A stretch of 39,154 nt of DNA, taken from contig JAJDAD010000037.1 of the NCBI GenBank assembly GCA_029262055.1, positions 1 to 39,154 of the forward strand, in the 5' to 3' direction. The stretch is from Candidatus Zhuqueibacterota bacterium (GTDB lineage: Bacteria; Zhuqueibacterota; Zhuqueibacteria; Oceanimicrobiales; Oceanimicrobiaceae). A program made the translations under genes and the position numbers. The notes beneath the pieces were generated by a model, which saw only the letters and a list, made by a program, of their open reading frames with translations, did no database searches and was not told the origin of the DNA. Within the stretch, counting starts at the first letter, position 1; each line of letters opens with the position of its first letter. Below are positions 11,667 to 39,154 of this stretch, in pieces.

Positions 11667-11692
11667 AAGGGCCGCCACCTGCGGTTGCGGGT

Positions 11693-13448: not shown

Positions 13449-13449
13449 G

Positions 13450-14382: not shown

Positions 14383-14499
14383 ACAGGTTCGGTTGGCATT
14401 ACATAACATAAGTCAATGATTACAAACTTGTAACTGGCACATCGCATGGATCTTTGTTGAACTTAAGAGGCGTCCTCATTGAGCAATTGGAGCACGACA

Positions 14500-16098: not shown

Positions 16099-16101
16099 CC
16101 C

Positions 16102-19404: not shown

Positions 19405-20027
19405 ACCGCAACGCCAGAGAGAAACTTGGACTTCCGGCCATTGCCGCTGACGAAAACGGATTTACTCTGGTCGAAGTCCTTGCTGCTTTAATGATCTTTG
19501 GGATTGTCGCATTGGCCACACTGAAACTCACACAAAAGGCCGTGTCTGCCGGAAAGGTCGTTACCGGAGAGACTGAGGTCCTGCAGCAGTTGCGTTATGC
19601 TACGGCTAGTCTAAGTGAGGACATCGCCAGCGCCCGCAGATTTTCGCTGTCACCCTTCCGCGGGTATGCTGATTCTCTACACATGACCGTTTTGGCCAAA
19701 GCCGCAAGCGGGCAGGTTCCTCTGCAAGTCAGGTACTACGTCAGAAATGACCGCGCTGGCGACGTGAGAAAGTTCGTGCGAGCTTCATCCGATTTCAGCG
19801 GCCATAGAGAAGAGGATATCCTGGTGACGCATTCGGGGACCGTGCAATTTCGGTATTTGCAGCAAGCCGGCCAAACCTCAAGGTGGCGCAACCGCTGGTT
19901 AGATTCCGATGGCATGCCATTGGCGGTTCAAGTTCTGATCAGAGGAGAGTCGGACAAAAAACTCTCGGAGATCATTTTTCCCATACGAACACACCGCATG
20001 GCTTTACCAGATGACAGGGACTCGTAG
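19401..20027 (+). CDS. gspJ: Minor pseudopilin GspJ
   Basis: A 208-residue pseudopilin. The leader MNRNAREKLGLPAIAADENG is cut before FTLVEVLAALMIFGIVALATL, with Glu at +5. The remainder resembles GspJ: a long helix (TEVLQQLRYATASLSEDI) and a beta-rich region with LQVRYYVRND and VQFRYLQQAG, then PLAVQVLIRG near the end. With GspI and GspK it would form the tip of the pseudopilus. ATGA overlap with gspI; 17-base overlap with gspK. Confidence 0.9.
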   Translation: MNRNAREKLGLPAIAADENGFTLVEVLAALMIFGIVALATLKLTQKAVSAGKVVTGETEVLQQLRYATASLSEDIASARRFSLSPFRGYADSLHMTVLAKAASGQVPLQVRYYVRNDRAGDVRKFVRASSDFSGHREEDILVTHSGTVQFRYLQQAGQTSRWRNRWLDSDGMPLAVQVLIRGESDKKLSEIIFPIRTHRMALPDDRDS

Positions 20028-21039: not shown

Positions 21040-21072
21040 ACGTATCTGGTACAACGTTTTGGAAGTACAACA

Positions 21073-22644
21073 ATGGAAGTCCTGACAAATAAAGTTGAGA
21101 TAAGCCCTTCCCGCATGGCTCCGCCCGCCGGCATGACCGGCAAGGCCCTTTCCTGGATTTCTGACATTGATCCGAGGGCAAAAAAGACGCTTGCCATCGA
21201 GTTTGATCGTAACCTGATCAAGTTCGTTCTGGTTGACGCACGTGGACTACAGCACGGTGTACATTTTCTCAAGGTCAAGTTTTTGTCGACTGAGCGTGAG
21301 CGTGAGATTCTCAAAGTGCTGCAAGAGAACCTGCTCGAAATGGAAGTCAAGCGCGGTCAGCACGCTACTATTTCCATACCCAGGCATAGCGTGCATACAA
21401 AAATTCTGCGCCTACCCAGCCATGACCCAAAAGAACTGCGCAAGATGGCGCTCTACCAACTGCAGAAAGAGATCCCTCTGCCCATTGCAGAAATCGTGTT
21501 CGACTTTCGCGTCATTGCCCGGGAAGACAACGGTCACACGCGCATAATGGCGGTGATGGCACGGTTGTCCGAAATAAGGCGTTATCTGGAGCTCTGCAAG
21601 GAGGTCGGCTTGCGGGTTGACGCGATTCGCCTCAACATTGAAGCCATTTATCATGCGCTGCAGTTTATCAAGGATTTCAAACAACTGCGGGAGAGCCGTA
21701 TTGCCCTGGTGGATGTGGATTTTTCCGCCACTAACATACTTATGCTCGATCGTGGCAACCTCCTGTTTTGCCGCAGTGTCGGCAAAGGCGTCAGTGACCT
21801 GATGGATTGCATGGTCGGGCCTGAACGGGCTGTCGTCTATGAAACCTGGGTGAACCGGCTTTCAGATGGCATACAGAGTACGATTGCTGTTTTCGATAAG
21901 AGCGGTTTGAATCGCAAGGTCGAACACGTCGCCTTAACAGGTTGGCTGCCGCGGACAAAGCAGCTCTGCCAAAAACTGAACGACGACCTTGGCGTGGACT
22001 CTAAGTGGTTCGACCTGATGACGCCGATCAGGCACTACTCACAGCGGCAGGATGATTATTCAACCCGCCACTGGTTTTCAATCTCAACTCTGTTGGGAAT
22101 GACCGCAGCTCCCGGCGCGGACCTAATGGACTTGCGTCCAACAGAGGAAAGGCGAAGTCACCGCAAAAGAACCACACTCAGGCAGGCAATCTACGCCGGT
22201 CTGATCCTGTGCTACATTTTGTTGCTCGGTCTTGGGAGTGCGAGGTTAGCGTTGCACCGGCGCCAGGAAGCGGTAGCTACAATCGAGCACAAGGTCGCGT
22301 CCCTGCAGCCGCAGGTTGATTTGATTCTCCAAGGTCAAAAACTTCAGAATCTGCTGGAAGCGCAGATCGGGTCAACCAAACTCACATCGTCCTTCCTGAG
22401 CAAGCTGTTCGGCCACCTGCCTGCAGGAATTGAGCTGACCTCCCTGACATTCCTACGAAACGAGAGTATGGTTGTGCGTGGAGTTGCCGGCGCTCTGTCA
22501 GATGTGTTTAATCTGCCGCCAATTCTCGCCCAACAGCCGGAGTTCAACGAAGCCGTTATCATCAATGCAGACAGACGTGTACAGGGAGAGGAGGAGCAAG
22601 TGCTGTTTGAAATGAAAATCAATTTGCAAAAGAATGAAAAATAG
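21073..22644 (+). CDS. gspL: GspL-type assembly protein (PilM-like plus PilN-like fusion)
   Basis: A 523-residue protein. The cytoplasmic part (about 25-350) is actin-like, as in PilM/GspL: LAIEFDRNLIKFVLVDARG, SIPRHSVHTKILRLP, QLQKEIPLPIAEIVFDF and VALTGWLPR. A charged stretch precedes one membrane helix (about 371-392), and the periplasmic part (about 393-523) is PilN-like (SFLSKLFGHLPAGIELTSL). GspL binds GspE and recruits it to the membrane. At this length it reads as a joined PilM and PilN. ATG 21073 follows GGAAG. gspM comes eight bases later. Confidence 0.88.
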   Translation: MEVLTNKVEISPSRMAPPAGMTGKALSWISDIDPRAKKTLAIEFDRNLIKFVLVDARGLQHGVHFLKVKFLSTEREREILKVLQENLLEMEVKRGQHATISIPRHSVHTKILRLPSHDPKELRKMALYQLQKEIPLPIAEIVFDFRVIAREDNGHTRIMAVMARLSEIRRYLELCKEVGLRVDAIRLNIEAIYHALQFIKDFKQLRESRIALVDVDFSATNILMLDRGNLLFCRSVGKGVSDLMDCMVGPERAVVYETWVNRLSDGIQSTIAVFDKSGLNRKVEHVALTGWLPRTKQLCQKLNDDLGVDSKWFDLMTPIRHYSQRQDDYSTRHWFSISTLLGMTAAPGADLMDLRPTEERRSHRKRTTLRQAIYAGLILCYILLLGLGSARLALHRRQEAVATIEHKVASLQPQVDLILQGQKLQNLLEAQIGSTKLTSSFLSKLFGHLPAGIELTSLTFLRNESMVVRGVAGALSDVFNLPPILAQQPEFNEAVIINADRRVQGEEEQVLFEMKINLQKNEK

Positions 22645-22652
22645 GTTCAAGT

Positions 22653-23201
22653 ATGCGCATTAGTCTTACCGGTAGAGAAAAAGTTTTGACTCTGGTGGCG
22701 GCAACAGGACTGCTCATTTTCCTTCTTTTGAGTTTTGGCCTGCTGCCACTGCTGCGAGACTGGCAGGACACATCAGCTCAAATGGATCTGTTGCAGACAT
22801 CCTATATTCGCAAGCTCAAGATGGCACGGGAGGCACAGAGTTTCGAGAAGAAGCTCAATCGCGCCGGAACCGGCCAGTCCGGGAGTGCACTAGTTGCCGA
22901 ATTTCTTGCAGAGATAGAGACGGTTGCCGGTGACCATATTCTTATTCGCAGGTTTCAACCGCTGCAAACACCGTTGGACCGGACGTCTGCTGCCCCCCGA
23001 AATACCTCAGCCCGGAACATCGAGAAACTCCGGATTCAGATTGAATGCTCAGGCAGTTTGAACAACCTCATGGCATTCATCCAAAATATCGAGAAAAAGG
23101 ACGCATTTACTCGCATCCAACATTTGTACCTGACGCCGGAAGGAAACGGCAGCGAAAGCCTGCAATGTCAGGTCATTCTCATGCGAATGATCCTCACATA
23201 A
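22653..23201 (+). CDS. gspM: GspM/PilO-like assembly protein
   Basis: A 182-residue bitopic protein with one membrane helix (about 12-36, VLTLVAATGLLIFLLLSFGLL), a helical linker (40-70) and a periplasmic ferredoxin-like domain (about 75-182; VAEFLAEIETVA, LRIQIECSGSLNNLMAFIQNIE, RIQHLYLTPEG). This is the GspM/PilO arrangement; it partners GspL. Identification rests on topology and position more than on strict motifs. The 194-bp gap after it has no supported gene. Confidence 0.85.
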   Translation: MRISLTGREKVLTLVAATGLLIFLLLSFGLLPLLRDWQDTSAQMDLLQTSYIRKLKMAREAQSFEKKLNRAGTGQSGSALVAEFLAEIETVAGDHILIRRFQPLQTPLDRTSAAPRNTSARNIEKLRIQIECSGSLNNLMAFIQNIEKKDAFTRIQHLYLTPEGNGSESLQCQVILMRMILT

Positions 23202-23395
23202 TGCTATCCGGGATATTTCATGCATCTGGGTATCGGGTACAAGGCAAACAACCGTAGTTATTCAAGAGGAGTCATCTTTTGTCCAGGTTCAGTAGCCATG
23301 CAGTTTTTACAGGAAATGCATCCGGAATGGCAACAGGGGGCGCTTATGAATGGGTGCAGGCCTGTGAACACCAGTAAGAACGAAACAATCTGACT

Positions 23396-24049
23396 ATGAA
23401 GAACCGACTGACAAGTCTATTGCGAAAGACCGCCGCCAGCCCTGCCAATGGCCGGTACGGCGGGCATGTCAATACTCCTGAACCGTGTGCGGGGTCAGGG
23501 GTTCGTGGTCTTGACAAAGACACGTTTTCGGGAAGCGTGTCGAAGATGATGAAAGCACTCAAGGAAATGGTGCGCGCCGAACCGATGATACTCCTGACTC
23601 GGGCGTTGCTGGCTGCGGCGTTGTTGTTGACCGTTGCAGCCGTCATCCTGGTCTGGTATGATAGTTCTGTGCTGGCCAGCCGGGTATTTGCTCTGGCTCA
23701 GGCAGCCACCGCACCGGATGTCAGACAAGCGCACCCGGCTACCGATGACGAGACAGACGCAACTCTTACTCAATTCGCCAACCGGCGATACTTCCAAAGT
23801 GAAGCACGGGAGAAGATTGTCCAAAGTAGCCCGCTGAACTCTGCCGAAGTACCAGGTTTCGCCGAACGCTACAGATTGATGGGCATCCTGATGGGCGATG
23901 TGCCTCAGGCCATTGTACACGAGAACAGTACAAATACCTCGATGTTCCTGACGAAGGGCCAACGCCTGGATGGGTACGACGTGCGCGATATTTTTTCAGA
24001 CCGGGTGTTGCTGCAACGTGGCAACGATTTAATCAATTTGAGGTTGTAG
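23396..24049 (+). CDS. gspC: GspC-like inner-membrane clamp protein
   Basis: A 217-residue protein with a cytoplasmic tail, one membrane helix (about 64-87), a low-complexity linker (90-145) and a C-terminal homology region (about 158-217) with YRLMGILMGDVPQAIVHE, SMFLTKGQRLDGYDV and VLLQRGNDLINLRL. That is the GspC HR domain, which binds the secretin N0 domain in the periplasm. There is no PDZ domain, so it is the short form. The first ATG (23396) lacks a clear ribosome site; the Met pair at residues 51-52 could be the real start and would give a more usual tail. Confidence 0.85.
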   Translation: MKNRLTSLLRKTAASPANGRYGGHVNTPEPCAGSGVRGLDKDTFSGSVSKMMKALKEMVRAEPMILLTRALLAAALLLTVAAVILVWYDSSVLASRVFALAQAATAPDVRQAHPATDDETDATLTQFANRRYFQSEAREKIVQSSPLNSAEVPGFAERYRLMGILMGDVPQAIVHENSTNTSMFLTKGQRLDGYDVRDIFSDRVLLQRGNDLINLRL

Positions 24050-24133
24050 GGCCGCAGACTACCGGTCGGCTAACAGCCCGGCAAGACCTGTCTCGCGACG
24101 GGCTTGCCTGAATCTCATAACAAGGAAAAGCCG

Positions 24134-25780
24134 ATGAATAAAGCACTTCTTTGCCCTCTACTTTGTTTTTTGCTGACAACTGTGGGAATGACACCGGCCC
24201 AGGCCCAAACGCGCGAACAGGCAAAAGTCAGCCTGCAGTTTCGGAATATGAACATCCACGATGTTTTCAAGACACTTTCCAAAGCCGGCGACCTAAAGAT
24301 TGTTACCAGCAAACCAGTACAGGGGTCAGTCAGCATTTTTGTCGACAGCCTGGCGGTGCTGGATGCGCTGGAACTTGTGGTCGAAATGCAGGGCCTTGCT
24401 TACTACCGAGAACACGGAATCATCAGAGTGGTTACAGCCGACGAATACCTGAAGCGATTCGGCAAAGCATTCAAAGATCGCATGCAGACCAGGATCGTCA
24501 AATTGCGTTACGTCAATCCGGAGCAGATCGTCAAGCTGGTGTTTCAGTTAAAGTCGAAAGATGGCAATGTCATTGCCGACCAGCGCAGTAACAGTGTTGT
24601 CATAGTCGACCTGCCGGGAGTCATTGACCGAATGGTTTCGGTCATGGAACAACTGGACGTTGAACTGCAGACACGCACATTTGGCCTTACTCATACTTCG
24701 GTGCAAGCAGTCGAGGAAGTCGTGAAAAGTATGGTGTCCGCCGGAGGAAAGATCAAGGCTGATGCGGCAGGCAATCAACTTACCGTAATCGACGACCGCG
24801 AGCGAATCGAACGTATCGAACAATTCCTGATCGAGGCGGACAAGCCTAACTCTGCCGTCATGCAAATTTTCTCGCTGCAATATACGGCTCCTGAAGACAT
24901 CGCTGCCAAGATTCAGGATGAGCTAACCCCCGGGATTGGGAGCGCGGTGGCGGACAACGCATCCAAGAAACTTTTTGTCCAGGACTTACCGGCCAATCTG
25001 CCCTATATCGAAGAGCTAATCGCGTCCCTGGACCAGCGAACTCAGCAAGTCCTGATCGAGGCAAAGATCATCCAGGTGAACCTCACCGATGAATACAAAA
25101 TGGGGGTCGACTGGGGCGGGATGACTGAGAAGTTTGGCGGAACGATCGACATTAGCTCTTCATTTCGAGCGCTGGCGGCAACAGATGGCGGCCTGCGGGT
25201 GGAGGGGACGGAGCTGGAGGCTGATTCCTTTACGCTGAATGGTCTTATCGAGGCCCTGCAGACCGTCGGTAAAACCGATCTTCTTTCAAATCCTCGCATC
25301 ACCTGCCTTAGCGGCAAAGAGGCATTTATCACAGTCGGAAGTACAGTACCATATAAAACCATTGATACGCGTGAGGACCAGGGTGGCGCGCTGCGCACCT
25401 TCGAAAAAGTCGTGACCGTCGAAGTCGGGGTCAAATTACGAGTCACGCCCTCCATCAATGACGAAGGCTACATCACCATGAAAATCAAGCCGGAAGTCAG
25501 CGAGGTGACCAGCTTCATCGATAATATTCCTGTTATCGAAAAATCAGAATCCGAAACCACGGTCATCGTTAAAGACGGCGTGACGATCATCATCGGTGGG
25601 TTGATTAAAGATCAAAAGATCGAAACAGAAAAGCGCATCCCGCTTCTGGGAAGTATCCCTGTCCTCGGCATTCCGTTTCGCAGTAAGAGCACCAAAAAGG
25701 TCAAGTCGGAGCTGGTGATTCTGCTGCAGCCGAAAATCATTACCGGGGACGTCAACATGGGGCGCAAGACTGGGTCATGA
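24134..25780 (+). CDS. gspD: Type II secretion secretin GspD
   Basis: A 548-residue outer-membrane channel protein. The signal peptide is about 1-25 (ending TPAQAQ). Domains in order: N0 (about 30-115, VSLQFRNMNIHDVFKTLSKA), N1 (VKLRYVNPEQIVKLVF), N2 (FGLTHTSVQAVEEVV), N3 (FSLQYTAPEDIAAKI), then the secretin barrel (QVLIEAKIIQVNLTDEY; LLSNPRITCLSGKEAFITVG; VGVKLRVTPSIND; TTVIVKDGVTIIIGGLIKD; PLLGSIPVLGIPFRS). It is short after the barrel, with no obvious S-domain, so it may need no pilotin. TTG 24104 is also in frame, but ATG 24134 has AAGGA upstream and begins the signal peptide. Confidence 0.96.
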   Translation: MNKALLCPLLCFLLTTVGMTPAQAQTREQAKVSLQFRNMNIHDVFKTLSKAGDLKIVTSKPVQGSVSIFVDSLAVLDALELVVEMQGLAYYREHGIIRVVTADEYLKRFGKAFKDRMQTRIVKLRYVNPEQIVKLVFQLKSKDGNVIADQRSNSVVIVDLPGVIDRMVSVMEQLDVELQTRTFGLTHTSVQAVEEVVKSMVSAGGKIKADAAGNQLTVIDDRERIERIEQFLIEADKPNSAVMQIFSLQYTAPEDIAAKIQDELTPGIGSAVADNASKKLFVQDLPANLPYIEELIASLDQRTQQVLIEAKIIQVNLTDEYKMGVDWGGMTEKFGGTIDISSSFRALAATDGGLRVEGTELEADSFTLNGLIEALQTVGKTDLLSNPRITCLSGKEAFITVGSTVPYKTIDTREDQGGALRTFEKVVTVEVGVKLRVTPSINDEGYITMKIKPEVSEVTSFIDNIPVIEKSESETTVIVKDGVTIIIGGLIKDQKIETEKRIPLLGSIPVLGIPFRSKSTKKVKSELVILLQPKIITGDVNMGRKTGS

Positions 25781-26709: not shown

Positions 26710-29700
26710 ATGAAGAGCGTGAAAAGATTACAACCTAAGTTGAACATTTTATGTATAGGACTGCTGCTGAGTCTGTTGTGTTCTAGCGTGCTTTTTGGAC
26801 AAGCTACTATTGGTGGAAAGGTTTATGAGGGCGCGCAGGATCCCTTGACGGGGTTACCCTATCTTGCGCCACATGCGCTCACGCCGTCCATTACCGATGC
26901 TAAGGTGATGGTGCAGAACCAGCATTCGGGCGGCGCCTGGATCGCTTACGGCACGTTTGTTGGCCCCAACGAATGGCGGGCCGATGTTTCTGAAGGAGAC
27001 TTTGTGATAATGATCTCCGCACCCGGGCATGATGCCACCAGCCGTGAAGTCCAGGTAGGTGCGGAAAGTTCGCTGGGAGCAAAGGACGGTGCGGTATCAC
27101 GTTTTGAACAAGATCCGCTTGGGGCAAAATTCACTTCAACTGACCCTCTCGCCATTGATGCTTACCTTCCGCCAATGTTCGACCTCGACGGCGGCGGTGA
27201 GCTAAACGATCTACCCAGAGCAAATCTTTTGGTTTACGCGTTCTACGACAACAAGGTAAACGGGGAACCGGATGATGAACCTGAAGATCTTCCGCTCAAT
27301 GGCGTCACTTTTACCGTCCGCGATGAGGAAGGAAATTTCCTGGCCTCGGGCGTGACTGGATCCCAGCCATCAATAGATGTTTCGGTGCTGCCCGGCTGTG
27401 TGGGCGGTGTCATAACCGGAACCGAAACTTGGGGCTTGTACTACTTCGAAGGTCTGCCGCCAGGGGAAGTAATCGTGACTTCCGATCCGACGACTATCGT
27501 ATCTTCGGGTCTGCCGCAGCATGCCCTCATGCCGGCATTTACTCCCGCCAGTTTATTCTATCTCAATTATACCGAGGAGGGTGGACCAGCCTGGGATCCG
27601 AAGTTGGCGCCGGGCGACTGCGGCACAGAAGCAGGCAACTTTCTCATTTGGCACAGCTACGTTGAAAAGATGGAACAAATCACTCCTGCAAATGTCGCAG
27701 GCCGCTTTGGGCCGACATTTGACCTGACCGGATACCCTGGAAATGCCGGCACAATCGAAGGGTATCTTACCGATGCAGACAAAGCCAATTTGGCACCGGA
27801 CGAGCCGTTTCCAGTTCCAGGCGAGGATCACCCGGGCGTCACACTCAATGAAGCGTTGCCTGATGGCCTGATCATACTGTTTACCGACATGGAGACCGTG
27901 CCGACCACCCGCCCTGTTGCCACGGCTGAGGCCGATCCGGTGACCGGACATTTTATGTTCACCGACGTCCCGCCAGGCCGGTACAAAATGATGATGTTTG
28001 ATATACCCCTGGATTATGTTTGGACACAACTTTCCGTGAATCTGGCTCCAAATGAGGCCAAGTTGTATCCACCCGATATTCTCCTTGTCCCGCGCTTCTT
28101 TGCCCGTTCACGGGGCTATGTCTATGAACTTGATCACTCAGTCTCTCCGCCGGATACCCTGCCCATGGTCGGTCAAGAAGTATATGTCCGTTATAAATCC
28201 GGCGCCATTAAGCATACAGAGATCACCAGTGACGGCAGTACTCTGCCGCTACCGCAAGGTCCGCCGGTCGCAGATTATGCAGGGTTTTATAATCACGACA
28301 ACCTTGGGGAAATCGAGGTCATGGGGAATACGGATGTTAAAATACCACCCGGCTATCGCGGCGCTATGATCACTGAGAGATTTTGGCCCAAGGGTAAGTT
28401 CATCGCGCCGGAGGATGCCAATTTTAACCAAAAGCTCGACGCTGGTGAGGATGGTACGGCCGGCCAACCCTTAAACGGTGAACTCGACTGGATTATTCCT
28501 GATGATGGTGCCGGCGGAATAGATTGCGCCGATTTGCTAACCTACTGGGATGCGGTGCTGAACCCGACTCCGGCGCTGACACTGAGTGATGTCTGCTTTG
28601 ACGCGACCCACAATGCCGCGAACCGGTATATCAATTGGTTTACAGCCAACTACCAGGCAGACTTCTACCTTGAAGCGATTCCTGCTGGCAAAGGCCACAT
28701 CGATGGCTACATTTTTAATGACCATTTATCCAGAGGGGATTGGACTGGCGATGGCGTTTACGATCGCGAAGAAGAAAGAACCCTGCATGGCGCAACTGTC
28801 GAGCTGTGGTCAACCGACCCGACACCGGTCCTACTCGCGACCACCACGACAGGTAAAGTAGACGAGGCAGCGGTAAGGGCGGAGCAGGGATGGCGTGGCG
28901 CCTACCAGTGGCCGGGTGATGAGTTCGGTGGGGTATTTGTCGGCCCGCAGATCGGTTACTATGAATTCAGGGATCTGGCGCCAGGTTCGTACACGGTTAA
29001 AGTGATTCCACCGGCTGGTTTCGTGCCAACGAAAGTGACGCATAATGCCGATCCACCCGTGTCCGGTGACGTATTTACTGTGGCAGTTACGGGCGTAGAG
29101 CCGATACTTCCCAGCAACGGCGACCACCATGAGGTCAATTTCGGCTGTAACACCACGCCGCCCGGAAGCACTCCGAACGTCGACCCCGGCGTACCGCTTG
29201 CCGGTGAGATCGAGGGCGGGGTCTGGGATGACCTCAACATTGATGGCCGGGGCGGTGAGTTTACTGCGAACCCGACCGATCCGAGGAGTCTGATGTTTGC
29301 GGAAAAGGCCGCGATTCCAGACGCTCCGGTGGGGGTTTACGATCATCTCGGCTACTTTATGGGCAGCCTGGTTCAGGGTAACCCATTGTGCCACCCCAAA
29401 GCCTTTCCAGGCGACTGCCCGGCAGGCGCGGATCCGGACCAAAAGCCAGAGGCGGAGCGGCGTTTCGCACCGGGAGTACACCTATATAATGGGAACGATC
29501 CGACCTTGCCTGGACATTGCCCGAACTACCTGCCCATGGTCTTGCCTTATACTTTTGGCCAGGGCAAGCATAAGTTCGAAGCAGACTGGTCATTGATGCC
29601 TAGTTCAACGTATGGAGATGATCCGTGCAATATAGATCCCTTGATTTCCATGAACGAGCCGATCATAATTGATCCGCTTGCCGGTCCGGCACCCGCTCCG

Positions 29701-32700
29701 GGCCCAATGTCCGTGAGACGCTTCGGAAGACAACAAATTGCCGTAGCACCAACTCAGTCTGCCGTCACGCTCAGCCCGGGAGATACCTACCGGATTAACG
29801 GGCTGGGTTTCGGTGATGCACAGGGTTATCAAACCGTGACTCTGGCCGGAAGAAAATTACCCGTAATCGCCTGGACCGACACCTACATTGACGTTCAAAT
29901 TCCACACGATTCAGACAAAGCCATCAGCGGACCGCTGCTTGTTGCAACCACGACCGGGATCTCGAATGCACTGTGGGTCGACATTAACTACAGCAGCGGC
30001 AGAGCCGGTTTCATGGAGAGGCAATCAGTCTTTGTTGATGCCGCCAATACGGGTCCCGAAGACGGCAGCGAAGCGAATCCCTGGAACACAATTGGGGAAG
30101 CGTTCGATAATCTACCAAATGATCCACCATTCTTTGTCTATGTAGCTCCGGGGACCTACAGGGAAACTGTTCAAATCAAAAGAAGTAGTGTAACGTTGAT
30201 CGGGGCAGGTCCGAACGTGACCACAATTAACGGCCTTCCGCAAAGCGTGCATTTTACTACTCAAGGTTCCAGCAATGGAGACGGACCCGTTATTTTTATA
30301 GGAAAGGGTGGCAAAACCGGTGCGGTTCACGATATCAGCATTAGTGGCTTCACCATCACCGGAAGTACAGTCAATAGCGATGATATCGGTGCCGGGATCT
30401 TCGGTGATTACGGCAACTACGATATCGACATTAACACTTGCAAGATTTACCGCAACGGTGGCTACTACGGCGGCGGTATCTGGTTGCATCTCTCTAACCA
30501 CAATGTACAGATCTGGTCCAACACCATTGCAGAAAATGGCAACTTTGGCGGTTATGGCGGCGGCATCAGTGTCAATGATGAGCCGGAGTATACCGAGGAG
30601 CACAGCCAGCCTGAGCACATCGTGGACGACTATAACCCCGGTCCGCCTCCTGGTATTTATGAGATTTACAATAACATCATTTTTCACAATTATTCTCCCG
30701 ATGGTGGTGGCGGTATCTGTCTGTATGAGATCAAAGATCACCTCAAGCTTTACGGCAATGTTCTTCTGGAGAACAAGGCTGAAGACCACGGTGGCGGTAT
30801 CTTTTTCGAAGAGACCGGGCCAATTGACCTTCATAACAATGTCTTCTTGCGGAATTTTAACTACGATGATGGTGCCGCAGTCAGCTTCGAAGATGTCACG
30901 GACACTCTTTCCCATGTAAACGTCTACAACAACCTTTTTGCTGAGAACATTGCTGATGACCATGGCGAAAACCGTGCTCGTGGCGGCGCCATGTCCTTCG
31001 ATGATACCTTCTACGCCGAAGTCTTCAACAACACGTTCGTCGGTAACATCGTTGCCGGCAGCTTTGATCCCGCTGGCGGCGCCATCGACAGCGAACGTCA
31101 TGGCCACGAGTACGACGGCGCGGACGGCCCATACACGGCCCCCGGATACAGTGACCCGAAAATCTATAACAACATCATTTGGGACAACTGGCGTTTGCAT
31201 TATAAGCAGCCCTTTGAAGGTGGCGAAGAAGAGGATCTGGATTATAAGTGGGGCGTGAACTATGTCTGGACGCCAGACCAACTGCACGTGGACAATCCAC
31301 ACCTGCAGGACGTGTGGGAAACCGACAAGAATTCTGAAAGCTTCAGCTATGTCCGCTACAATATCATAGGAGGAGGCTACTCTTACAACAACCAGCCGCC
31401 AACCGCCGATGCCGGGCCTGACATCACCCTGACCGACAGCGATAATGACGGCTCTGAAAGTGTCGCCTTGGCTGGTACCGGTTCATCGGATTCTGATGGC
31501 ACGATTGTCAGTTACACATGGACAGAGGCTGGTGCGCCAATCGCCAGCGGCGTCAATCCCACCATCAGCCTGTCGGTCGGCAGCCACGCGATCTATTTGA
31601 CCGTGCATGATGAATACGGAGCATCTGGTTCAGCGCTGGTCAACTTAGTGGTCAACCCGGGTGGTCCGATCAAATTTGCTCCTGTCGAAGACTCCTACGT
31701 CAAGTCGGGAAGCTCAAAAACTTACGGACAAAATACCACGATGAGAATTCGGAGTAGCAGCACTAGTTACAGTGGCTACCTGAAATTCAGTGTGACCGGT
31801 TTGGCTGGAGCAGCCCAGAATGCCCTGGTGCGCCTGTTCGTCAAAAACGCCAGCGATGATGGTGGCAGTATCTACCTGGCTTCTAACTACTACGACGGGA
31901 CAACCGATCCGTGGGACGAAGATGGCCTGAAGTCCAGCAATGCGCCAGCGACGACTGGTTCTGCTTTAAGCAGCCTGGGTGCGGTCAGCGTCGGCCAGTG
32001 GGTCGAGTTTGACGTGACATCGGCTATTACCGGCAATGGCACTTACAGCTTCTGCATAAAAGACGGCAGCAGCAATAGCGTTAAGTATAGCACCAAGGAA
32101 GGCTCTGACCCGCCGGAATTGTGCATTGAAGGCAGTTCAAGCGGTGGTGGCGGCAATCAACCGCCGGTGGCCAACGTGGGTCCGGACCAAACTGTCACGG
32201 ATACCGACAATGGCGGCACCGAGCTTGTCACACTGGACGGCAGTCTGTCAAATGATCCTGACGGCACCATCGCCAGTCACGTTTGGTCTGAAGGCGGCAA
32301 CCAGATCGCTACAGGCGCCAATCCCACGGTAGTACTACCAGTTGGCATCCATACCATCGATTTGACCGTGACCGACAACCTGGGTGCAACAGGCACCGGC
32401 CAGGTGGTTATTACGGTTAATGCAGGTGGCGGCGGTGGGGCGACGACACTCACTCTCAACCCGACCGACGATGCCCAGGTGAAATCTTCCAAACCCACCA
32501 AGAACTACGCGACCAAGACCACGATGAGGCTTCGCGGCGGTGGCGGCACCAAGTACAGCTCTTATGTACAGTTCAATGTTAGCGGATTGGGCGGGCCGGT
32601 ACAGAGCGCCACGCTGAGACTGCTGGTCAAAGATGGTGGCACCGATGGTGGGACATTCTATTCTTCGGTGACCGGCTGGAATGAGAACACACTCAATTAC

Positions 32701-34074
32701 AATAATGCTCCTGCCAACGTGGGTGCTTCATTGAGTACGGTCGGTGCTGTGAATGTGAGTGAGTGGGTCGAAATCGATGTTACCTCCGCCGTTGCAGGCA
32801 ATGGCCAGGTTAGCTTTTGTATCGAAAACGGTTCATCCAACAGTGTGAAGTACAGCACAAAGGAAGGCTCGGGTGCGCCTGAGCTGGTCATCGTGACCGG
32901 TTCCGGCGGTGGTGGTGGCAATCTGTCACCGATTGCCAATGCGGGCACAGACCAAAATGTGACCGATAGCGACAACAATGGTTCCGAATCCGTGGCCTTG
33001 AATGCGTTACTCTCGAATGATCCCGATGGCACCATTACCAGCTACGTTTGGTCCGAAAGCGGTAGCCAAGTCGCCACAGGGGTTAATCCCGCGGTTTTGC
33101 TTGCGGTTGGCACGCATTTCATTGACCTGACCGTGACAGACAACCTCGGAGCCACTGGTACCGACCAGGTTGTGGTGGTAGTTAACCCGGGTGCTGGCGG
33201 TGGTTCCACGACCCTGACTTTCAATCCGACTGATGACGCACAGGTCAAAAGGTCCAAGCCGACGAAAAATTATGTTGATAAGACTACCATGAGGATCAGG
33301 AAGGGTAGCTACTTCTCTTACCTCCAATTCAATGTGACCAGCGTAACGGGCGCCGTGCAGATGGCAACTCTGCGTCTCTTCGTCAAGGATGCCGGACCGG
33401 ATGGCGGCACATTTTATTCCGTCTCGAATGCGTGGGACGAAAGCACACTTAACTACAACAACGCCCCGGCCATCGTCGGCTCACCCGTAGGCGCATTAGG
33501 CGCCGTCAACGTCGGCGAGTGGGTTGAAATCGATGTGACCTCGGCGGTTTCAGGAAATGGTACAGTCAGTTTCTGTATTGACAACGGTACTTCTAACAGT
33601 GTCAAATACAGCACGAAAGAAGGTTCGGACGCACCTGAGCTGGTGGTCCAGTCTGCCACTTCCGCACCAGCGCCATCACTGCTTATCGCATCGAACGGCA
33701 CACTCATGCTCACTTCTTTTCCGAATGCTATGGCATTTTCGGTGAAGAGGGACGAGGGCGGTCTGCGCGCCATGAGCAAGGCCTTGCCGGCGCTCAGCGG
33801 CGCAAGCGGCAATCTCGATGTTGACCCTGACTTCGTGGACCCGGCCCTATTCAACTGGCGGCTTCAACCTGGATCGGCTGCCATCGACAAGGCTGATGCA
33901 GCCAAGGGACCGGATGTTGACTTGGAGTTGCTGCCACGTTCCGCTGTGAACGGCATGATCGATATTGGAGCATTCGAGTGGCGCGCGAATTCTCCCAGCG
34001 TTGTACGGATCCCGCTTGGCGTACTTGGACAGGTTCCGATTCCGACGCCTGGTAGTTCAAGACTTTACCCCTAG
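26710..34074 (+). CDS. Giant secreted modular protein (SdrD_B-like, IPT, beta-helix, PKD/DNRLRE repeats)
   Basis: A 2454-residue exported protein. The signal peptide is about 1-31 (ending VLFGQ). Residues 32-1010 hold several SdrD_B/SpaA-like modules (GLYYFEGLPPGEVIV, GHFMFTDVPPGRYKM, YYEFRDLAPGSYTVKV). Residues 1017-1100 form an IPT/TIG-like domain (YRINGLGFGDAQGYQTVTLAG). Residues 1107-1560 form a right-handed beta-helix (SEANPWNTIGEAFDNLP, FVYVAPGTYRETV, then YYGGGIW, GGGGICLY and DHGGGIFFEE turns). Residues 1561-2317 are three PKD plus DNRLRE/CBM96-like units. The tail (about 2335-2420) has LDVDPDFVDP, LQPGSAAIDKADAAKGPDVD and IDIGAFEW, the beta-helix closing region. There is no sortase or type IX sorting signal, so the adjacent T2SS is the likely exporter. 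ATG 26710 follows GAGG. Confidence 0.9.
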   Translation: MKSVKRLQPKLNILCIGLLLSLLCSSVLFGQATIGGKVYEGAQDPLTGLPYLAPHALTPSITDAKVMVQNQHSGGAWIAYGTFVGPNEWRADVSEGDFVIMISAPGHDATSREVQVGAESSLGAKDGAVSRFEQDPLGAKFTSTDPLAIDAYLPPMFDLDGGGELNDLPRANLLVYAFYDNKVNGEPDDEPEDLPLNGVTFTVRDEEGNFLASGVTGSQPSIDVSVLPGCVGGVITGTETWGLYYFEGLPPGEVIVTSDPTTIVSSGLPQHALMPAFTPASLFYLNYTEEGGPAWDPKLAPGDCGTEAGNFLIWHSYVEKMEQITPANVAGRFGPTFDLTGYPGNAGTIEGYLTDADKANLAPDEPFPVPGEDHPGVTLNEALPDGLIILFTDMETVPTTRPVATAEADPVTGHFMFTDVPPGRYKMMMFDIPLDYVWTQLSVNLAPNEAKLYPPDILLVPRFFARSRGYVYELDHSVSPPDTLPMVGQEVYVRYKSGAIKHTEITSDGSTLPLPQGPPVADYAGFYNHDNLGEIEVMGNTDVKIPPGYRGAMITERFWPKGKFIAPEDANFNQKLDAGEDGTAGQPLNGELDWIIPDDGAGGIDCADLLTYWDAVLNPTPALTLSDVCFDATHNAANRYINWFTANYQADFYLEAIPAGKGHIDGYIFNDHLSRGDWTGDGVYDREEERTLHGATVELWSTDPTPVLLATTTTGKVDEAAVRAEQGWRGAYQWPGDEFGGVFVGPQIGYYEFRDLAPGSYTVKVIPPAGFVPTKVTHNADPPVSGDVFTVAVTGVEPILPSNGDHHEVNFGCNTTPPGSTPNVDPGVPLAGEIEGGVWDDLNIDGRGGEFTANPTDPRSLMFAEKAAIPDAPVGVYDHLGYFMGSLVQGNPLCHPKAFPGDCPAGADPDQKPEAERRFAPGVHLYNGNDPTLPGHCPNYLPMVLPYTFGQGKHKFEADWSLMPSSTYGDDPCNIDPLISMNEPIIIDPLAGPAPAPGPMSVRRFGRQQIAVAPTQSAVTLSPGDTYRINGLGFGDAQGYQTVTLAGRKLPVIAWTDTYIDVQIPHDSDKAISGPLLVATTTGISNALWVDINYSSGRAGFMERQSVFVDAANTGPEDGSEANPWNTIGEAFDNLPNDPPFFVYVAPGTYRETVQIKRSSVTLIGAGPNVTTINGLPQSVHFTTQGSSNGDGPVIFIGKGGKTGAVHDISISGFTITGSTVNSDDIGAGIFGDYGNYDIDINTCKIYRNGGYYGGGIWLHLSNHNVQIWSNTIAENGNFGGYGGGISVNDEPEYTEEHSQPEHIVDDYNPGPPPGIYEIYNNIIFHNYSPDGGGGICLYEIKDHLKLYGNVLLENKAEDHGGGIFFEETGPIDLHNNVFLRNFNYDDGAAVSFEDVTDTLSHVNVYNNLFAENIADDHGENRARGGAMSFDDTFYAEVFNNTFVGNIVAGSFDPAGGAIDSERHGHEYDGADGPYTAPGYSDPKIYNNIIWDNWRLHYKQPFEGGEEEDLDYKWGVNYVWTPDQLHVDNPHLQDVWETDKNSESFSYVRYNIIGGGYSYNNQPPTADAGPDITLTDSDNDGSESVALAGTGSSDSDGTIVSYTWTEAGAPIASGVNPTISLSVGSHAIYLTVHDEYGASGSALVNLVVNPGGPIKFAPVEDSYVKSGSSKTYGQNTTMRIRSSSTSYSGYLKFSVTGLAGAAQNALVRLFVKNASDDGGSIYLASNYYDGTTDPWDEDGLKSSNAPATTGSALSSLGAVSVGQWVEFDVTSAITGNGTYSFCIKDGSSNSVKYSTKEGSDPPELCIEGSSSGGGGNQPPVANVGPDQTVTDTDNGGTELVTLDGSLSNDPDGTIASHVWSEGGNQIATGANPTVVLPVGIHTIDLTVTDNLGATGTGQVVITVNAGGGGGATTLTLNPTDDAQVKSSKPTKNYATKTTMRLRGGGGTKYSSYVQFNVSGLGGPVQSATLRLLVKDGGTDGGTFYSSVTGWNENTLNYNNAPANVGASLSTVGAVNVSEWVEIDVTSAVAGNGQVSFCIENGSSNSVKYSTKEGSGAPELVIVTGSGGGGGNLSPIANAGTDQNVTDSDNNGSESVALNALLSNDPDGTITSYVWSESGSQVATGVNPAVLLAVGTHFIDLTVTDNLGATGTDQVVVVVNPGAGGGSTTLTFNPTDDAQVKRSKPTKNYVDKTTMRIRKGSYFSYLQFNVTSVTGAVQMATLRLFVKDAGPDGGTFYSVSNAWDESTLNYNNAPAIVGSPVGALGAVNVGEWVEIDVTSAVSGNGTVSFCIDNGTSNSVKYSTKEGSDAPELVVQSATSAPAPSLLIASNGTLMLTSFPNAMAFSVKRDEGGLRAMSKALPALSGASGNLDVDPDFVDPALFNWRLQPGSAAIDKADAAKGPDVDLELLPRSAVNGMIDIGAFEWRANSPSVVRIPLGVLGQVPIPTPGSSRLYP
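31390..33660 (+). repeat. Three tandem PKD + DNRLRE units of about 765 bp
   Basis: Unit starts are at 31390, 32155 and 32920, exactly 765 bp (255 codons) apart; the third unit is a little shorter. Each has a PKD-like part (N-x-x-P-x-A-x-x-G-x-D start, TDSDN, SxDPDGTI, LTVxDxxGATG), a Gly-rich linker and a DNRLRE/CBM96-like part (DDAQVKSSKPTKNY, TTMRIR, NNAPA, WVEIDVTSA, SNSVKYSTKEGS). Units 2 and 3 are more like each other than either is to unit 1. Confidence 0.9.
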
Positions 34075-34700: not shown

Positions 34701-36005
34701 ATGCTAGAGATTGCAATCAACAGTCTGACCGCCCTGGTGGCTGTCGGAATTCCAGCCTGGTACATCGTCAAGAATAGCAGACAAAGGAAACGGGCTTCCG
34801 AGAAACTCGCCCAGGCAGAAGAGCGCGGGCTGACCGAACCTGTTTCGCTACACCCTAAAATAGATTTGGCCAATTGCATCCAGACCGGAGCCTGTGTTCC
34901 GTCCTGCCCGGAGGGAGAGATTCTCGGCATCATTGACGGCCGGGCTGCAATGGTGTCACCGACAAAATGCATCGGTCACGGCGCCTGCGAGGCGGCCTGC
35001 CCGGTTGAAGCTATCGCGCTGGTCTTCGGAACGGAACGCCGTGGCGTGGAATTGCCGTTTGTCAAGCCCACGTTTGAGACCAATGTCTCCGGTGTCTATA
35101 TCGCGGGCGAACTCGGCGGCATGGGTCTGATTCGAAACGCAGTGACTCAGGGCCGGGAAGCGATTGAATTCATTAGTGAATCTCTGACCCAGAAGGACTC
35201 AGCGGTAAAAGACGTGATTGTCGTCGGCGCCGGCCCAGCCGGACTGGCGGCTTCGCTTCAGGCAAAGAAACAGGGCCTGAATGTCGTCACGGTTGATCAG
35301 GATGATATTGGCGGCACTGTTCTCAGTTATCCTCGTCAGAAACTCGTCATGACGCAGCCCATGGAAATACCATTGTACGGTCGCGTCAAGTTTCGTGAGA
35401 TTATCAAGGAAGACCTTCTGGAACTCTGGCACCAAGTGATCGACAAGACTGGCCTGGAAGTGAAGACTCATGAAAAAGTGGAAGAAATCGAGCGTGTCAA
35501 CGGGCATTTTAAGATCAACACTTCGAAAGGGGAGCATCTTGCCCAGCGGGTACTGCTGGCGATTGGCCGCCGCGGCACGCCGCGCAAACTAGGTGTGCCT
35601 GGTGAGAAGACCTCAAAAGTTGCCTATCGCTTGCTTGAGCCTGAACAGTATAGGCGCAAAAAGGTAGTGGTAATCGGCGGCGGTGATAGTGCGATTGAAG
35701 CGGCCCTGGCATTGTCGGAACAAAAGGGCACAGAAGTGATTCTTTCCTATCGGAAAGGGGCCTTCAGCCGGATAAAAGAGAAAAATGAGGAGCGGATCGA
35801 GCAGGCAATTCAGCTTGGCAAGGTACGAGTGGCGTTCGAATCCCAGGTTAAAGAAATCAAGCGGGAGCATGTCGTTCTCAGTCAGAACAACAAGGACGCA
35901 AAAGTGCATAACGACTATGTCTTTATCATGATTGGCGGTGTCCTGCCCACACAATTTCTGCAAAATATCGGAATCAGCATTGAGAAGAAATTTGGAGAAC
36001 GCTAG
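34701..36005 (+). CDS. Membrane-tethered Fe-S / FAD NAD(P)-dependent oxidoreductase
   Basis: A 434-residue protein with one N-terminal membrane helix (about 3-23), then a two-cluster ferredoxin-like domain (C59-x5-C65-x3-C69P and C90-x5-C96-x3-C100P). The second Cys of each standard motif is replaced by T62 and H93. A linker (about 122-157) reads FVKPTFETNVSGVYIAGELGGMG and LIRNAVTQGREA (adjacent blocks). A thioredoxin-reductase-like flavoprotein follows, with the FAD loop VVGAGPAGLAASL (about 176) and the NAD(P) loop VIGGGDSAIEAAL (about 326). No CxxC lies in the flavoprotein part, so it is not a thioredoxin reductase. The frame is open from 34617; ATG 34701 has GGTGAG nine bases upstream, and ATG 34695 is the alternative. 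It probably passes NAD(P)H electrons to the cytochrome genes that follow. Confidence 0.82.
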   Translation: MLEIAINSLTALVAVGIPAWYIVKNSRQRKRASEKLAQAEERGLTEPVSLHPKIDLANCIQTGACVPSCPEGEILGIIDGRAAMVSPTKCIGHGACEAACPVEAIALVFGTERRGVELPFVKPTFETNVSGVYIAGELGGMGLIRNAVTQGREAIEFISESLTQKDSAVKDVIVVGAGPAGLAASLQAKKQGLNVVTVDQDDIGGTVLSYPRQKLVMTQPMEIPLYGRVKFREIIKEDLLELWHQVIDKTGLEVKTHEKVEEIERVNGHFKINTSKGEHLAQRVLLAIGRRGTPRKLGVPGEKTSKVAYRLLEPEQYRRKKVVVIGGGDSAIEAALALSEQKGTEVILSYRKGAFSRIKEKNEERIEQAIQLGKVRVAFESQVKEIKREHVVLSQNNKDAKVHNDYVFIMIGGVLPTQFLQNIGISIEKKFGER

Positions 36006-36878
36006 GTGAGCCTGCATCGGGCAATTCTGACCATCCTTTACATCAGCGCACTAATGTTCGCAGGAGCTGTTCTCGTGCAAGCTTTTGGCTATTATCAGCT
36101 AGCGCTCGAACAGCGCCCGCATTCTTCTCTCCACACTACAATGAAACCGGGTGGTTCCTGGGGCCATGGACTGGGCATCCTCGGCAGCGCTATGATGCTT
36201 TTGCTCTTTCTCTATTCGGCGCGCAAACGCCGGTTCTGTGGGCTGCGGTTTGGAAAGACACGGCATTGGCTGAACATTCACATCTTTTTTGGGATCATGG
36301 GGCCGGTCTTCGTCAATCTGCATACGTCCTTCAAGATTGGCGGAATTGTCGCGGTCAGTTATTATTCGATGATGGCTGTGATGTTAAGCGGATTTATCGG
36401 CCGCTGCCTGTATGTCAAGATTCCTCGTGCCCTATCCGGTGATGAACTTACAATGCGGGAGATGCAGGAAAAGAAGCGGTCACTAAACCAACTGTTGGTC
36501 GAAAAATACGGCCTCGATGTCGACTTTATCGCAGAGATAGGTACGCTCCCCGGTTTGGAGCGCGGCGAAAGACTGTGCGGCATTGCTGCGATTTTCGCCC
36601 TCCTCAAGAATGACCTGACTCGCGTCTTTCAGATGCGCGGTGTACGAAGACGCCTTCGGTGCGAATTGAGCGCCTTGCCACGGCAGGAAGCAGGCAAGCT
36701 GCTGCAGATTATCAAGCAGCAATCGTTGCTGGTTCGAAAGATGACTTTCCTGAGCACGGTCCAGCCTCTTTTGCATTATTGGCATGTTGCGCACAAACCC
36801 TTCGCCTACGTCATGATTATCATCATGTTTGTCCATATCGCAGTAGTGTTGATGTTTGGGCACCAGTGGGTTTTCTAA
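36006..36878 (+). CDS. Integral membrane haem-b-type cytochrome subunit
   Basis: A 290-residue membrane protein with about five helices (8-28, 53-72, 88-106, 112-131, 265-284) and a soluble cytoplasmic-like insert between the fourth and fifth (about 135-250). His residues sit at membrane positions suitable for haem b ligands: H54, H92, H106, H257, H260, H263 and H277. No CxxCH is present. The GTG start at 36006 directly follows the TAG of the oxidoreductase gene, so translation is coupled. It overlaps the 20-haem cytochrome gene. I infer that it carries electrons across the inner membrane; the exact cytochrome-b family is not clear to me. Confidence 0.7.
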   Translation: MSLHRAILTILYISALMFAGAVLVQAFGYYQLALEQRPHSSLHTTMKPGGSWGHGLGILGSAMMLLLFLYSARKRRFCGLRFGKTRHWLNIHIFFGIMGPVFVNLHTSFKIGGIVAVSYYSMMAVMLSGFIGRCLYVKIPRALSGDELTMREMQEKKRSLNQLLVEKYGLDVDFIAEIGTLPGLERGERLCGIAAIFALLKNDLTRVFQMRGVRRRLRCELSALPRQEAGKLLQIIKQQSLLVRKMTFLSTVQPLLHYWHVAHKPFAYVMIIIMFVHIAVVLMFGHQWVF

Positions 36879-38589
36879 TCACGCACTTACGGAGTGGTCT
36901 TTCCTGAGTATTGTAAAGCTGAATGTTATTCGACGTTTGTCGGTCTGTCTTTCCCTGCTGCTGGTGGCTCCGCGCGTATTCGGGCAGATTTCACCTGGGG
37001 ACCTGGCCCGGCCGCATGCGCACCTGGAGGGGCTGACCAACTGCACAAAGTGTCATAAGTTAGGTGGCGGGCCATCCGCAGAAAAGTGTTTCGAATGCCA
37101 TGTTGAGATCAAAGAATACATTCAAGCAAAACGAGGCTACCACTTCGTAGTGGCCGGACAAAATGCCAAACAGTGTTTTGAATGTCATAGCGACCATAAC
37201 GGCAAGAAATTTGAACTGATTCACTGGCCATCGGGCCAGGAAAATTTCGAACATAAATTGACAGGTTTTCTCCTGGAGGGACGGCATGCTCAGGCCAAAT
37301 GCCGGGAGTGCCATCAGCCGAAGAATGTTGCCATTGACGTCCGCAAAATGAACCAGAATATCGATTTGGAGAAGACCTTTCTTGGACTAGGCCGGGAATG
37401 CACAAATTGCCATGCAGACGAGCACCGGGGGCAACTGTCACAAGATTGCCGTCAATGCCACACTATGTCAGGCTGGAAACCTGCCGCCAATTTTGAACAC
37501 ATGCGCGCCAAGTTTCAACTCACCGGCCGGCACCTGAAAGTCGACTGCAAAAAGTGTCATCCCTCCGTGACCGAAGCTCTCAGCACCAAGTCCACAACGC
37601 GGGGCAGTTTCACCAGGTTCGTCGGCATTGACTTCCAAAATTGTAACGCCTGCCACATCGACCGCCACAAAGGCCGCTTTGGCCAAAATTGCAAACAATG
37701 CCATGGTACTGCAAGTTGGGCCAAGCTCAAGTCAGGCGATTTTAACCATAAACTCACTCGGTTTCCACTGCTGGGATTGCACGACTCCGTTCCCTGCGAA
37801 AAATGCCATTCCAGCGGCAAACCTCGGAGCGGCCTCAAGTTCGCCAGGTGCACCGATTGTCACAAGGATCAACATCTCGGGCAGTTTGCCGCTCGCCCGG
37901 ACCGGGGCAAATGCGAAAGCTGTCATGATGTATTTGGATTTCGGCCGGCGAAGTTCGGTGTTGCCGAGCATGGGCGTACAATCTACCCCCTGTCCGGTGC
38001 GCATCTCGCCATTCCGTGCACAAGCTGTCATGTCAGACAAGCGAGTACAGGGCGCCGGAAATTCAGATTCACGAATACCTCATGTCTCGGCTGCCATCAG
38101 GATGTTCACCTCGGGCAATTCGCAGCCAAGATTCAGACAGGCGGCTGTGAGTCTTGCCATTCAGTGGAAGCCTGGCAGGAGACCCACTTTGACCACAATT
38201 CCGCGCGATTCCCTTTACGTGGGCTGCACAAGAGAGTCAGTTGCAGGCAGTGTCACAAACGGACTGAGCAGGGATCATCTCGAGAGCGAATCCTCTTTCG
38301 TCCCATGAAGATGACCTGCGAAGGCTGTCATCAGGACATTCATCTGGGACAATTCACGAAAGGAAGAGCTAAGAAAGCGTGTGACCAGTGTCACAGTCCA
38401 GCCGGATGGATCGAACTCCTGTTCGACCACGATAACGATTCCAGGTTTAAGTTAAAGGGAGCGCACGAAAAGGTTGGCTGCCTCGACTGCCACGCTATCG
38501 AAACTCGGCAATCCATCACCTTTGTGCGCTTCAAACCGGTGGACCCGCGCTGTATCAGTTGCCATGCTAATGAAGGGAAGACAAAATGA
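36856..38589 (+). CDS. Periplasmic 20-haem cytochrome c (cytochrome c3 / CXXCH-repeat type)
   Basis: A 577-residue protein with 20 CxxCH motifs (from CTKCH to CISCH). The export signal is LSVCLSLLLVAPRVFGQ at about 27-43. The 26 residues before it (from ATG 36856, inside the previous gene) are unusually polar, so translation may begin later, for example at the CTG at 36904. The body is built of a repeating module: F-x-H-x(6)-FxLxGxH-x3-VxCxxCH, then CxxCHxDxHxGQF, then CxxCH-x4-W. It likely stores or relays electrons in the periplasm, fed by the membrane cytochrome. The last codon overlaps the next start (ATGA). Confidence 0.92.
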   Translation: MGTSGFSNHALTEWSFLSIVKLNVIRRLSVCLSLLLVAPRVFGQISPGDLARPHAHLEGLTNCTKCHKLGGGPSAEKCFECHVEIKEYIQAKRGYHFVVAGQNAKQCFECHSDHNGKKFELIHWPSGQENFEHKLTGFLLEGRHAQAKCRECHQPKNVAIDVRKMNQNIDLEKTFLGLGRECTNCHADEHRGQLSQDCRQCHTMSGWKPAANFEHMRAKFQLTGRHLKVDCKKCHPSVTEALSTKSTTRGSFTRFVGIDFQNCNACHIDRHKGRFGQNCKQCHGTASWAKLKSGDFNHKLTRFPLLGLHDSVPCEKCHSSGKPRSGLKFARCTDCHKDQHLGQFAARPDRGKCESCHDVFGFRPAKFGVAEHGRTIYPLSGAHLAIPCTSCHVRQASTGRRKFRFTNTSCLGCHQDVHLGQFAAKIQTGGCESCHSVEAWQETHFDHNSARFPLRGLHKRVSCRQCHKRTEQGSSRERILFRPMKMTCEGCHQDIHLGQFTKGRAKKACDQCHSPAGWIELLFDHDNDSRFKLKGAHEKVGCLDCHAIETRQSITFVRFKPVDPRCISCHANEGKTK

Positions 38590-39154
38590 AACGGCACTGC
38601 AAAATTCTATTCATTGTAATTTCTTGTGTTCTTTCGACAGGCAGGTTCTTTCCGGCCCTGGCTCAGCAAAATCCGCACAAAAATATCGAAAAGAACTGCG
38701 GCAAGTGCCACCTCCCAACCGATTGGCAAACCATCCGGTTCGATCACGGAGCTACCGACTTTGAACTCCTGGCCCAACATGAGCAAATCTCTTGTAAGTC
38801 ATGCCATTCCGTCGCAGACTTTTCACGGGTAAGCTCTAATTGCGCTAGCTGCCATTCGGATGTGCATCAAGCCAAAATGGGAAACGATTGCCGGCGCTGT
38901 CACGAGTCCAGCGGCTGGGAGGTTTTCAATGTTGAAGAGATTCATGAGAACACGCAGTTTCCCTTACTGGGGGCACACCTGCTCGTTGATTGCCAAAGCT
39001 GTCACCAGAACCAGCAACAGGGTGATTTTGCCCTATTGACGACAGACTGCGTCGGATGCCACGAGCAGCAATATCTCACCACGGAGAATCCCAACCATGT
39101 TGCCAATTCGTTTTCCACTGACTGCCAAAGCTGCCACGACCTGAACGACTGGCG
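38586..39154 (+). CDS. Multihaem cytochrome c, 5' part (3' end outside window)
   Basis: The ATG overlaps the stop of the 20-haem cytochrome (ATGA). A signal peptide (about 1-27, ending FPALAQ) is followed by at least seven CxxCH motifs in 189 visible residues: CGKCH, CKSCH, CASCH, CRRCH, CQSCH, CVGCH and CQSCH. It shares the F-P-L-L-G-A-H module and the CHxDVHQ segment with its neighbour, so the two are related by duplication. The frame is open to the end of the window. Confidence 0.9.
   Translation, partial: MKRHCKILFIVISCVLSTGRFFPALAQQNPHKNIEKNCGKCHLPTDWQTIRFDHGATDFELLAQHEQISCKSCHSVADFSRVSSNCASCHSDVHQAKMGNDCRRCHESSGWEVFNVEEIHENTQFPLLGAHLLVDCQSCHQNQQQGDFALLTTDCVGCHEQQYLTTENPNHVANSFSTDCQSCHDLNDW

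Follow-up and report, generated by a model that had tools for sequence, protein, structure and literature searches.

A conserved five-gene unit in candidate division KSB1 and other bacteria encodes a candidate NAD(P)H-driven electron route across both membranes

Introduction

In the porin-cytochrome conduits MtrCAB of Shewanella and Pcc of Geobacter, multihaem c cytochromes are encoded together with an outer-membrane barrel, and in MtrA 10 haems span 80 Å (PMC7198977). The studied Gram-negative entries at the inner membrane, CymA, ImcH, CbcL and CbcBA, are quinol-linked; they deliver inner-membrane electrons to periplasmic haems and carry c-haems of their own. Flavinylation-associated MsrQ-like and DUF4405 cytochromes have four conserved haem-ligand histidines and are often fed by NAD(P)H domains (PMC8238504, PMC11334425). 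NAD(P)H-fed MsrQ-like systems serve flavinylated partners (PMC8238504), and one DUF4405 protein has been demonstrated to bind haem b (PMC11334425).

The locus analysed here is similar to each of these systems in part. As in the conduits, multihaem c cytochromes stand with a barrel-like protein, but this protein is not MtrB/PioB (no Pfam match to that family among 10 members), the 20-haem c7-type cytochrome scores 44.3 bits with the decahaem MtrA model TIGR03508 (cut-off 192.2), and the inner-membrane input is encoded within the unit itself. Unlike CbcL, ImcH, CbcBA and CymA, the unit has a flavoprotein as input and no c-haem on its membrane protein. This putative cytochrome b shares the four histidines of the MsrQ/DUF4405 proteins, and members of its family weakly match PF01794 and PF14358, but it has five predicted transmembrane (TM) helices instead of six and would have multihaem c cytochromes and a barrel as its partners; the cluster yielded no flavinylated (FMN-bind/ApbE) partner. 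The flavoprotein has an FAD/NAD(P)H core like that of YpdA (bacillithiol disulfide reductase) and thioredoxin reductase (TrxR), but this core is permuted, is joined to a ferredoxin domain and a TM anchor, and has alanine in place of the active-site cysteine.

We found no description of the five-gene architecture in the open-access literature searched. Passages of the paper on KSB1 genomes from a tunnel list iron reductases for these genomes (PMC10732223), and the architecture is described neither in its main-text passages nor in passages of KSB1/Zhuqueibacterota papers.

Gene layout and genomic surroundings

The window, i.e. the whole stretch of DNA analysed, is an entire contig of 39154 bases (C45) of the source genome, and its fourth gene of interest is therefore cut by the assembly. 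The genes lie on the forward strand in the order Fe-S flavoprotein (34701..36005), putative cytochrome b (36006..36878), 20-haem cytochrome c (36856..38589) and contig-cut multihaem cytochrome c (38586..39154). The original prediction had these four genes and their spacings of 0, 23 and 4 bp right: the flavoprotein and membrane protein genes abut (0 bp), the second cytochrome overlaps the 20-haem gene by 4 bp, and the overlap of 23 bp between the membrane protein and 20-haem genes hinges on the chosen TTG start. The named relatives (50-71% identity) belong to candidate division KSB1, and one or more of these genomes came from the Oslofjord subsea tunnel (PMC10732223); a single-protein search of genome contigs matched only three KSB1 records. 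Three COX1-family genes are present in the source genome. Judged by gene content, the hosts look aerobic or facultative, hence their need for extracellular respiration is questionable.

The remainder of the window holds several other recognisable regions. The contig begins inside a frame of tandem 17-aa repeats (1-504; QVEELGLGADGWGENAV). A histidine kinase, a PstS-like protein, a porin and a response regulator are encoded at 10173-14130; the same four-gene set, identified by eye, immediately precedes the flavoprotein gene in one KSB1 genome (G002, L033:14989-18840) and may regulate the unit. Judging from its translations, the region 14479-25780 appears to encode a type II secretion system, with GspE, GspF, a prepilin peptidase, pseudopilins and GspD in an operon. 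Type II secretion systems export outer-surface cytochromes in other bacteria. A surface protein of 2454 aa with repeated domains (26710-34074) is encoded directly upstream of the unit on the same strand.

A permuted Fe-S flavoprotein

The flavoprotein has 434 aa and, based on Pfam, PDB relatives and a permutation test, consists of an N-terminal TM anchor, a two-motif ferredoxin domain and a circularly permuted FAD/NAD(P)H core of the YpdA/TrxR type. Its Pfam matches are Pyr_redox_3 (E=1e-47) and Fer4_10 (3e-9). The TM anchor was recognised by hydropathy (aa 1-23, 34701..34769) and is followed by a K/R-rich stretch, which the positive-inside rule predicts to be on the cytoplasmic side. Alignments place the ferredoxin motifs C59-x5-C65-x3-C69P and C90-IGH93-xx-C96-x3-C100P at 34875..35003. 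His93 stands at the second cysteine of motif 2 (CIGHGxC...CP) and is invariant in 18 homologues, and the second cysteine of motif 1 is also replaced in this clade. The membrane-tethered flavoprotein with two Fe-S motifs that had been proposed is thus present with both motifs, but these are not classic.

The order of the nucleotide-binding segments is unusual. The FAD-closing motif ETNVSGVYIAGELGGMGLIRNAVTQG (aa 125-151, 35073..35153), which is C-terminal in TrxR and YpdA, here precedes the FAD-binding GxGxxG motif GAGPAG (aa 176-181, 35226..35243), and the NAD(P)H-binding GGGDSA follows at aa 326-331 (35676..35693). The position of the FAD-closing segment was derived from PDB alignments, from the C-terminal part of Pyr_redox_2, the last part of which matches the segments of homologues (E 0.04-0.07), and from re-permutation. 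When the segment was shifted to the C-terminus in silico, the TIGR04018 score rose to 206 bits (from 186), with 312 instead of 264 of the 316 positions covered. The nearest solved structures are those of YpdA/Bdr (7a76 and 7a7b, E about 1e-30). From these comparisons, the core is best read as a circular permutation of the YpdA/thioredoxin-reductase type. A permuted core is apparently also combined with another membrane module in the source genome: at L134:6281-8620 (contig C13) such a core forms one protein with a membrane domain that is polyferredoxin-like and has Fe-S motifs.

We rejected the identification of the flavoprotein as a YpdA-like disulfide reductase because the active cysteine is absent: its position is occupied by alanine in the window and by alanine or threonine, never cysteine, across 18 homologues. 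The protein as encoded also stays, with 193 bits, below the TIGR04018 cut-off of 340. Since Arg351 and Arg357, located after the NAD(P)H motif, are invariant, the electron donor is more likely NADPH than NADH.

A putative two-haem membrane cytochrome

The second protein (290 aa, GTG start) has 5 predicted TM helices, based on hydropathy, low-confidence AF2 helices and weak matches to the DUF4405 and Ferric_reduct families. The predicted haem-b ligands form two pairs, H92-x13-H106 in TM3 (36279..36323) and H263-x13-H277 in TM5 (36792..36836). None of the four histidines varies among 18 sequences, which extend to Sphingobium and Methylophaga proteins of 25% identity, and hydropathy and alignment place the positively charged loops of the family on one side of the membrane. 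Two histidine pairs in two TM helices are the pattern of two-haem membrane cytochromes, as in the bc1 and ferric-reductase families. In the broad, FRD/DUF4405-like sense the protein thus has the make-up of a two-haem cytochrome b, with a spacing within the His pairs that suits two stacked haems. Among 16 members, 10 weakly match DUF4405 and 7 Ferric_reduct; the only family matched by the protein of the window itself is Ferric_reduct PF01794, with 15.8 bits (cut-off 28). We regard the protein as distantly related to the two-haem cytochromes of the DUF4405/ferric-reductase type. A PDB sequence search with its profile gave no match, and the AF2 model (4 sequences) had a pLDDT of 60 and returned only meaningless matches in fold comparison.

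The original prediction considered this entry distinct from CymA, CbcL and ImcH, and this holds. PF03264 (NapC/NirT) is absent from all four proteins, with two such matches elsewhere in the genome, and the membrane protein has no CXXCH, so the fused c-type domain of CbcL is missing. Membership of MtrCAB, CymA, ImcH and CbcL was rejected on domain, haem and score tests.

Two kinds of rearrangement link this cytochrome to the flavoprotein. In two genomes (G256 and G357) both proteins are fused into a single ORF, and the distant homologues in Sphingobium and Methylophaga adjoin NAD(P)H flavoproteins of other kinds, which have Fe-S domains. These fusions and substituted flavoproteins point to direct electron transfer from flavoprotein to cytochrome b, and are the best evidence for it. 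They speak at the same time against a quinone-linked arrangement, in which the cytochrome b would oxidise menaquinol as CbcL does, with the flavoprotein as a side input. Such an arrangement would agree with the weak DUF4405 matches and with the description of MsrQ as quinone-binding (PMC8238504), but the cytochrome lacks the fused c-haems of CbcL, and we regard it as very unlikely.

Multihaem cytochromes and the barrel-like protein

The third gene encodes a c-type cytochrome with a Sec-type signal and an uncertain start codon, containing 20 CXXCH and 44 His and matching Cytochrome_C7 and Cytochrom_c3_2. The fourth contains 7 CXXCH in the N-terminal part that precedes the contig end. A 20-haem cytochrome followed by a further multihaem cytochrome, as originally proposed, is accordingly what the window encodes. 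A chance origin of the motifs was rejected by shuffling, as shuffled sequences of the two cytochromes contained on average 0.21 and 0.10 CXXCH (maximum 2), compared with 20 and 7 observed. Almost every full-length copy of the first cytochrome has exactly 20 CXXCH; among the exceptions are Emticicia (23), G317 (19), G310 (29) and G357 (23). The 20-haem proteins contain 41-54 His, sufficient for bis-His ligation. Scaling from MtrA, 20 haems would reach about 160 Å, which we propose as the reason for the fixed number. A PDB sequence search with this cytochrome gave no match, and membership of Geobacter ExtO/ExtN was rejected (36.5 and 36.8 bits, NCBIfam cut-off 200).

The second cytochrome very probably continues on another contig of this genome, C112. 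At its end, 350 aa of a cytochrome are encoded (L081:13765-14814, minus strand), whose 13 CXXCH lie in trihaem repeats that are nearly identical. We attribute the assembly break to these tandem repeats. The two contigs share no sequence overlap, so we rate their adjacency as very likely rather than certain. Together the two parts give at least 20 haems, plus those in the gap. The haem count of this protein varies across genomes, from 9-10 (G133, G295) to 52 (G317) and 76 (G357; a 1954-aa open frame, L137:11845-17706, near the flavoprotein-cytochrome b fusion). Its C-terminal trihaem domain is kept across phyla and is multiplied about tenfold in G002. Another large cytochrome of G002 ends in the same domain (L033:19145-19900), which suggests a shared docking or export partner. 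The source genome has a second multihaem locus (L051, contig C106:156000-175900), with an ExtM-like cytochrome, a cNMP-Fer4-cytochrome b fusion with H-x13-H pairs, more cytochromes and a barrel-like protein.

More cytochrome or outer-membrane genes had been expected downstream, and a candidate for the latter is present on C112: the profile of the gene next downstream in relatives has one homologue in the source genome, located after the cytochrome end (E=2e-182). The 18 members of this family have signal-like N-termini, 14 of them end in phenylalanine, and 17 show strand-like alternation with z of 2-5.5, compared with 3.5 for the porin-like protein in the window. The AF2 model (2 sequences) predicts long strands with low confidence (pLDDT 39), too weak for a fold search. 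Among 10 homologues, Pfam gave only sub-threshold FlgT_C and one chance match, and no MtrB/PioB, and a PDB sequence search with the family profile gave no match. We infer an outer-membrane barrel from the signal peptide, strand alternation, terminal phenylalanine and predicted strands, that is, from resemblance and not from homology. In the broad sense of a porin-cytochrome system, gene linkage and strand-like sequence are present and the outer-membrane location is predicted.

Conservation and co-occurrence of the unit

By six-frame mapping, the five genes stand together in nine KSB1 genomes. The set is also complete in seven of the sampled genomes of other phyla, several further copies being cut by contig ends, and in one genome (G375) the cytochrome b is on one contig and the remaining four genes on another. 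In the cultured Emticicia oligotrophica DSM 17448, plasmid pEMTOL02 has all five genes next to ccsA. One KSB1 family has a split unit, where the inner-membrane pair is divergent from the other three genes and still adjoins them or lies nearby. The search for the gene order in other genomes, which had been suggested as a check, thus recovered it across phyla, at a length of five genes. Maturation genes (CcsA and a CycH-like TPR protein) adjoin the unit in several genomes.

For co-occurrence, 306 non-KSB1 genomes were evaluated, about one for each family, with cut-offs of E<=1e-60 for cytochrome b and E<=1e-20 for the barrel. Each was found in 14 genomes and both in 11 (p 2.8e-15); for cytochrome b and the flavoprotein p was 3e-19, and as the genomes are partly related by descent, such p-values are indicative. 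Mirror-tree correlations were 0.60 between cytochrome b and flavoprotein and 0.67 between 20-haem cytochrome and barrel, both above every permutation, and 0.11, not significant, between cytochrome b and 20-haem cytochrome; this uneven support leads us to read the unit as two sub-modules.

The association with the barrel bears on the reading that the cytochromes serve a periplasmic reductase, with the barrel being an independent porin or an anchor and no conduit. MsrQ-like and DUF4405-like cytochromes usually do serve periplasmic or cell-surface partners (PMC8238504, PMC11334425), and the distant versions in Sphingobium (plasmid pMSHV) and Methylophaga (plasmid pWTT2411), both in cultured hosts, comprise an NAD(P)H flavoprotein, the cytochrome b and a single multihaem cytochrome, without a barrel. 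Nevertheless, the barrel gene lies directly 3′ of the cytochromes across phyla, it co-occurs with cytochrome b as given above, its distances track those of the 20-haem cytochrome, and no candidate reductase was seen recurring in the cluster. A purely periplasmic role thus seems unlikely to us.

Proposed electron route and implications

The reading we favour, and hold to be probable, is an NAD(P)H-driven and quinone-independent electron route across both membranes, formed by a five-gene porin-cytochrome-like unit. The inner-membrane-tethered flavoprotein would take electrons from cytoplasmic NAD(P)H to FAD and Fe-S clusters and hand them to the cytochrome b, whose five helices would hold two haems b, one close to each side of the inner membrane. 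The next carriers would be the fixed-length 20-haem cytochrome in the periplasm and then the variable-length multihaem cytochrome, which would be placed in or at the outer-membrane β-barrel, with the barrel as sheath, and would exchange electrons with an extracellular acceptor. The first part, from NAD(P)H over membrane haem b to a periplasmic haem chain, had been anticipated by the original prediction and gains support, at the level of sequence, from the invariant bis-haem histidines, the two fusions, the conserved order and the flavoprotein substitutions.

The direction would be outward. Every carrier is reversible in principle, and KSB1 relatives come, according to passages of the tunnel study, from iron- and manganese-oxidising biofilms (PMC10732223), so the same chain might let electrons from an extracellular donor, such as Fe(II), another cell or a cathode, reduce NAD(P)+. 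General bioenergetics argues against this, since Fe(II) electrons at neutral pH are too oxidising for NAD(P)+ without energy input and their passage via haem b would oppose the inside-negative membrane potential; the cluster, moreover, has no proton-coupled module. An inward conduit is in our opinion highly improbable.

Returning to the outward route, we also considered a broader version, tentative and on balance doubtful, in which the unit represents a widespread and previously unrecognised class of export systems. Here the 20-haem cytochrome would bridge the periplasm from cytochrome b to the barrel, and the second cytochrome, grown by tandem duplication (9 to 76 haems), would be an extendable external wire.

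The Gram-negative pathways used for comparison begin at the quinone pool, use separate shuttle cytochromes and were studied in few lineages. Here a single cassette encodes the whole putative path that leads from NAD(P)H out of the cell, and copies of it are present in several phyla, aerobes among them, and on a plasmid. As this plasmid carries the complete set in a culturable bacterium, the proposal is testable. If true, the unit would be a second type of electrical connection between cytoplasm and cell exterior, in which the membrane potential would help to push electrons out, and its variable cytochromes would offer a natural series of proteins differing in length for the study of protein wires.
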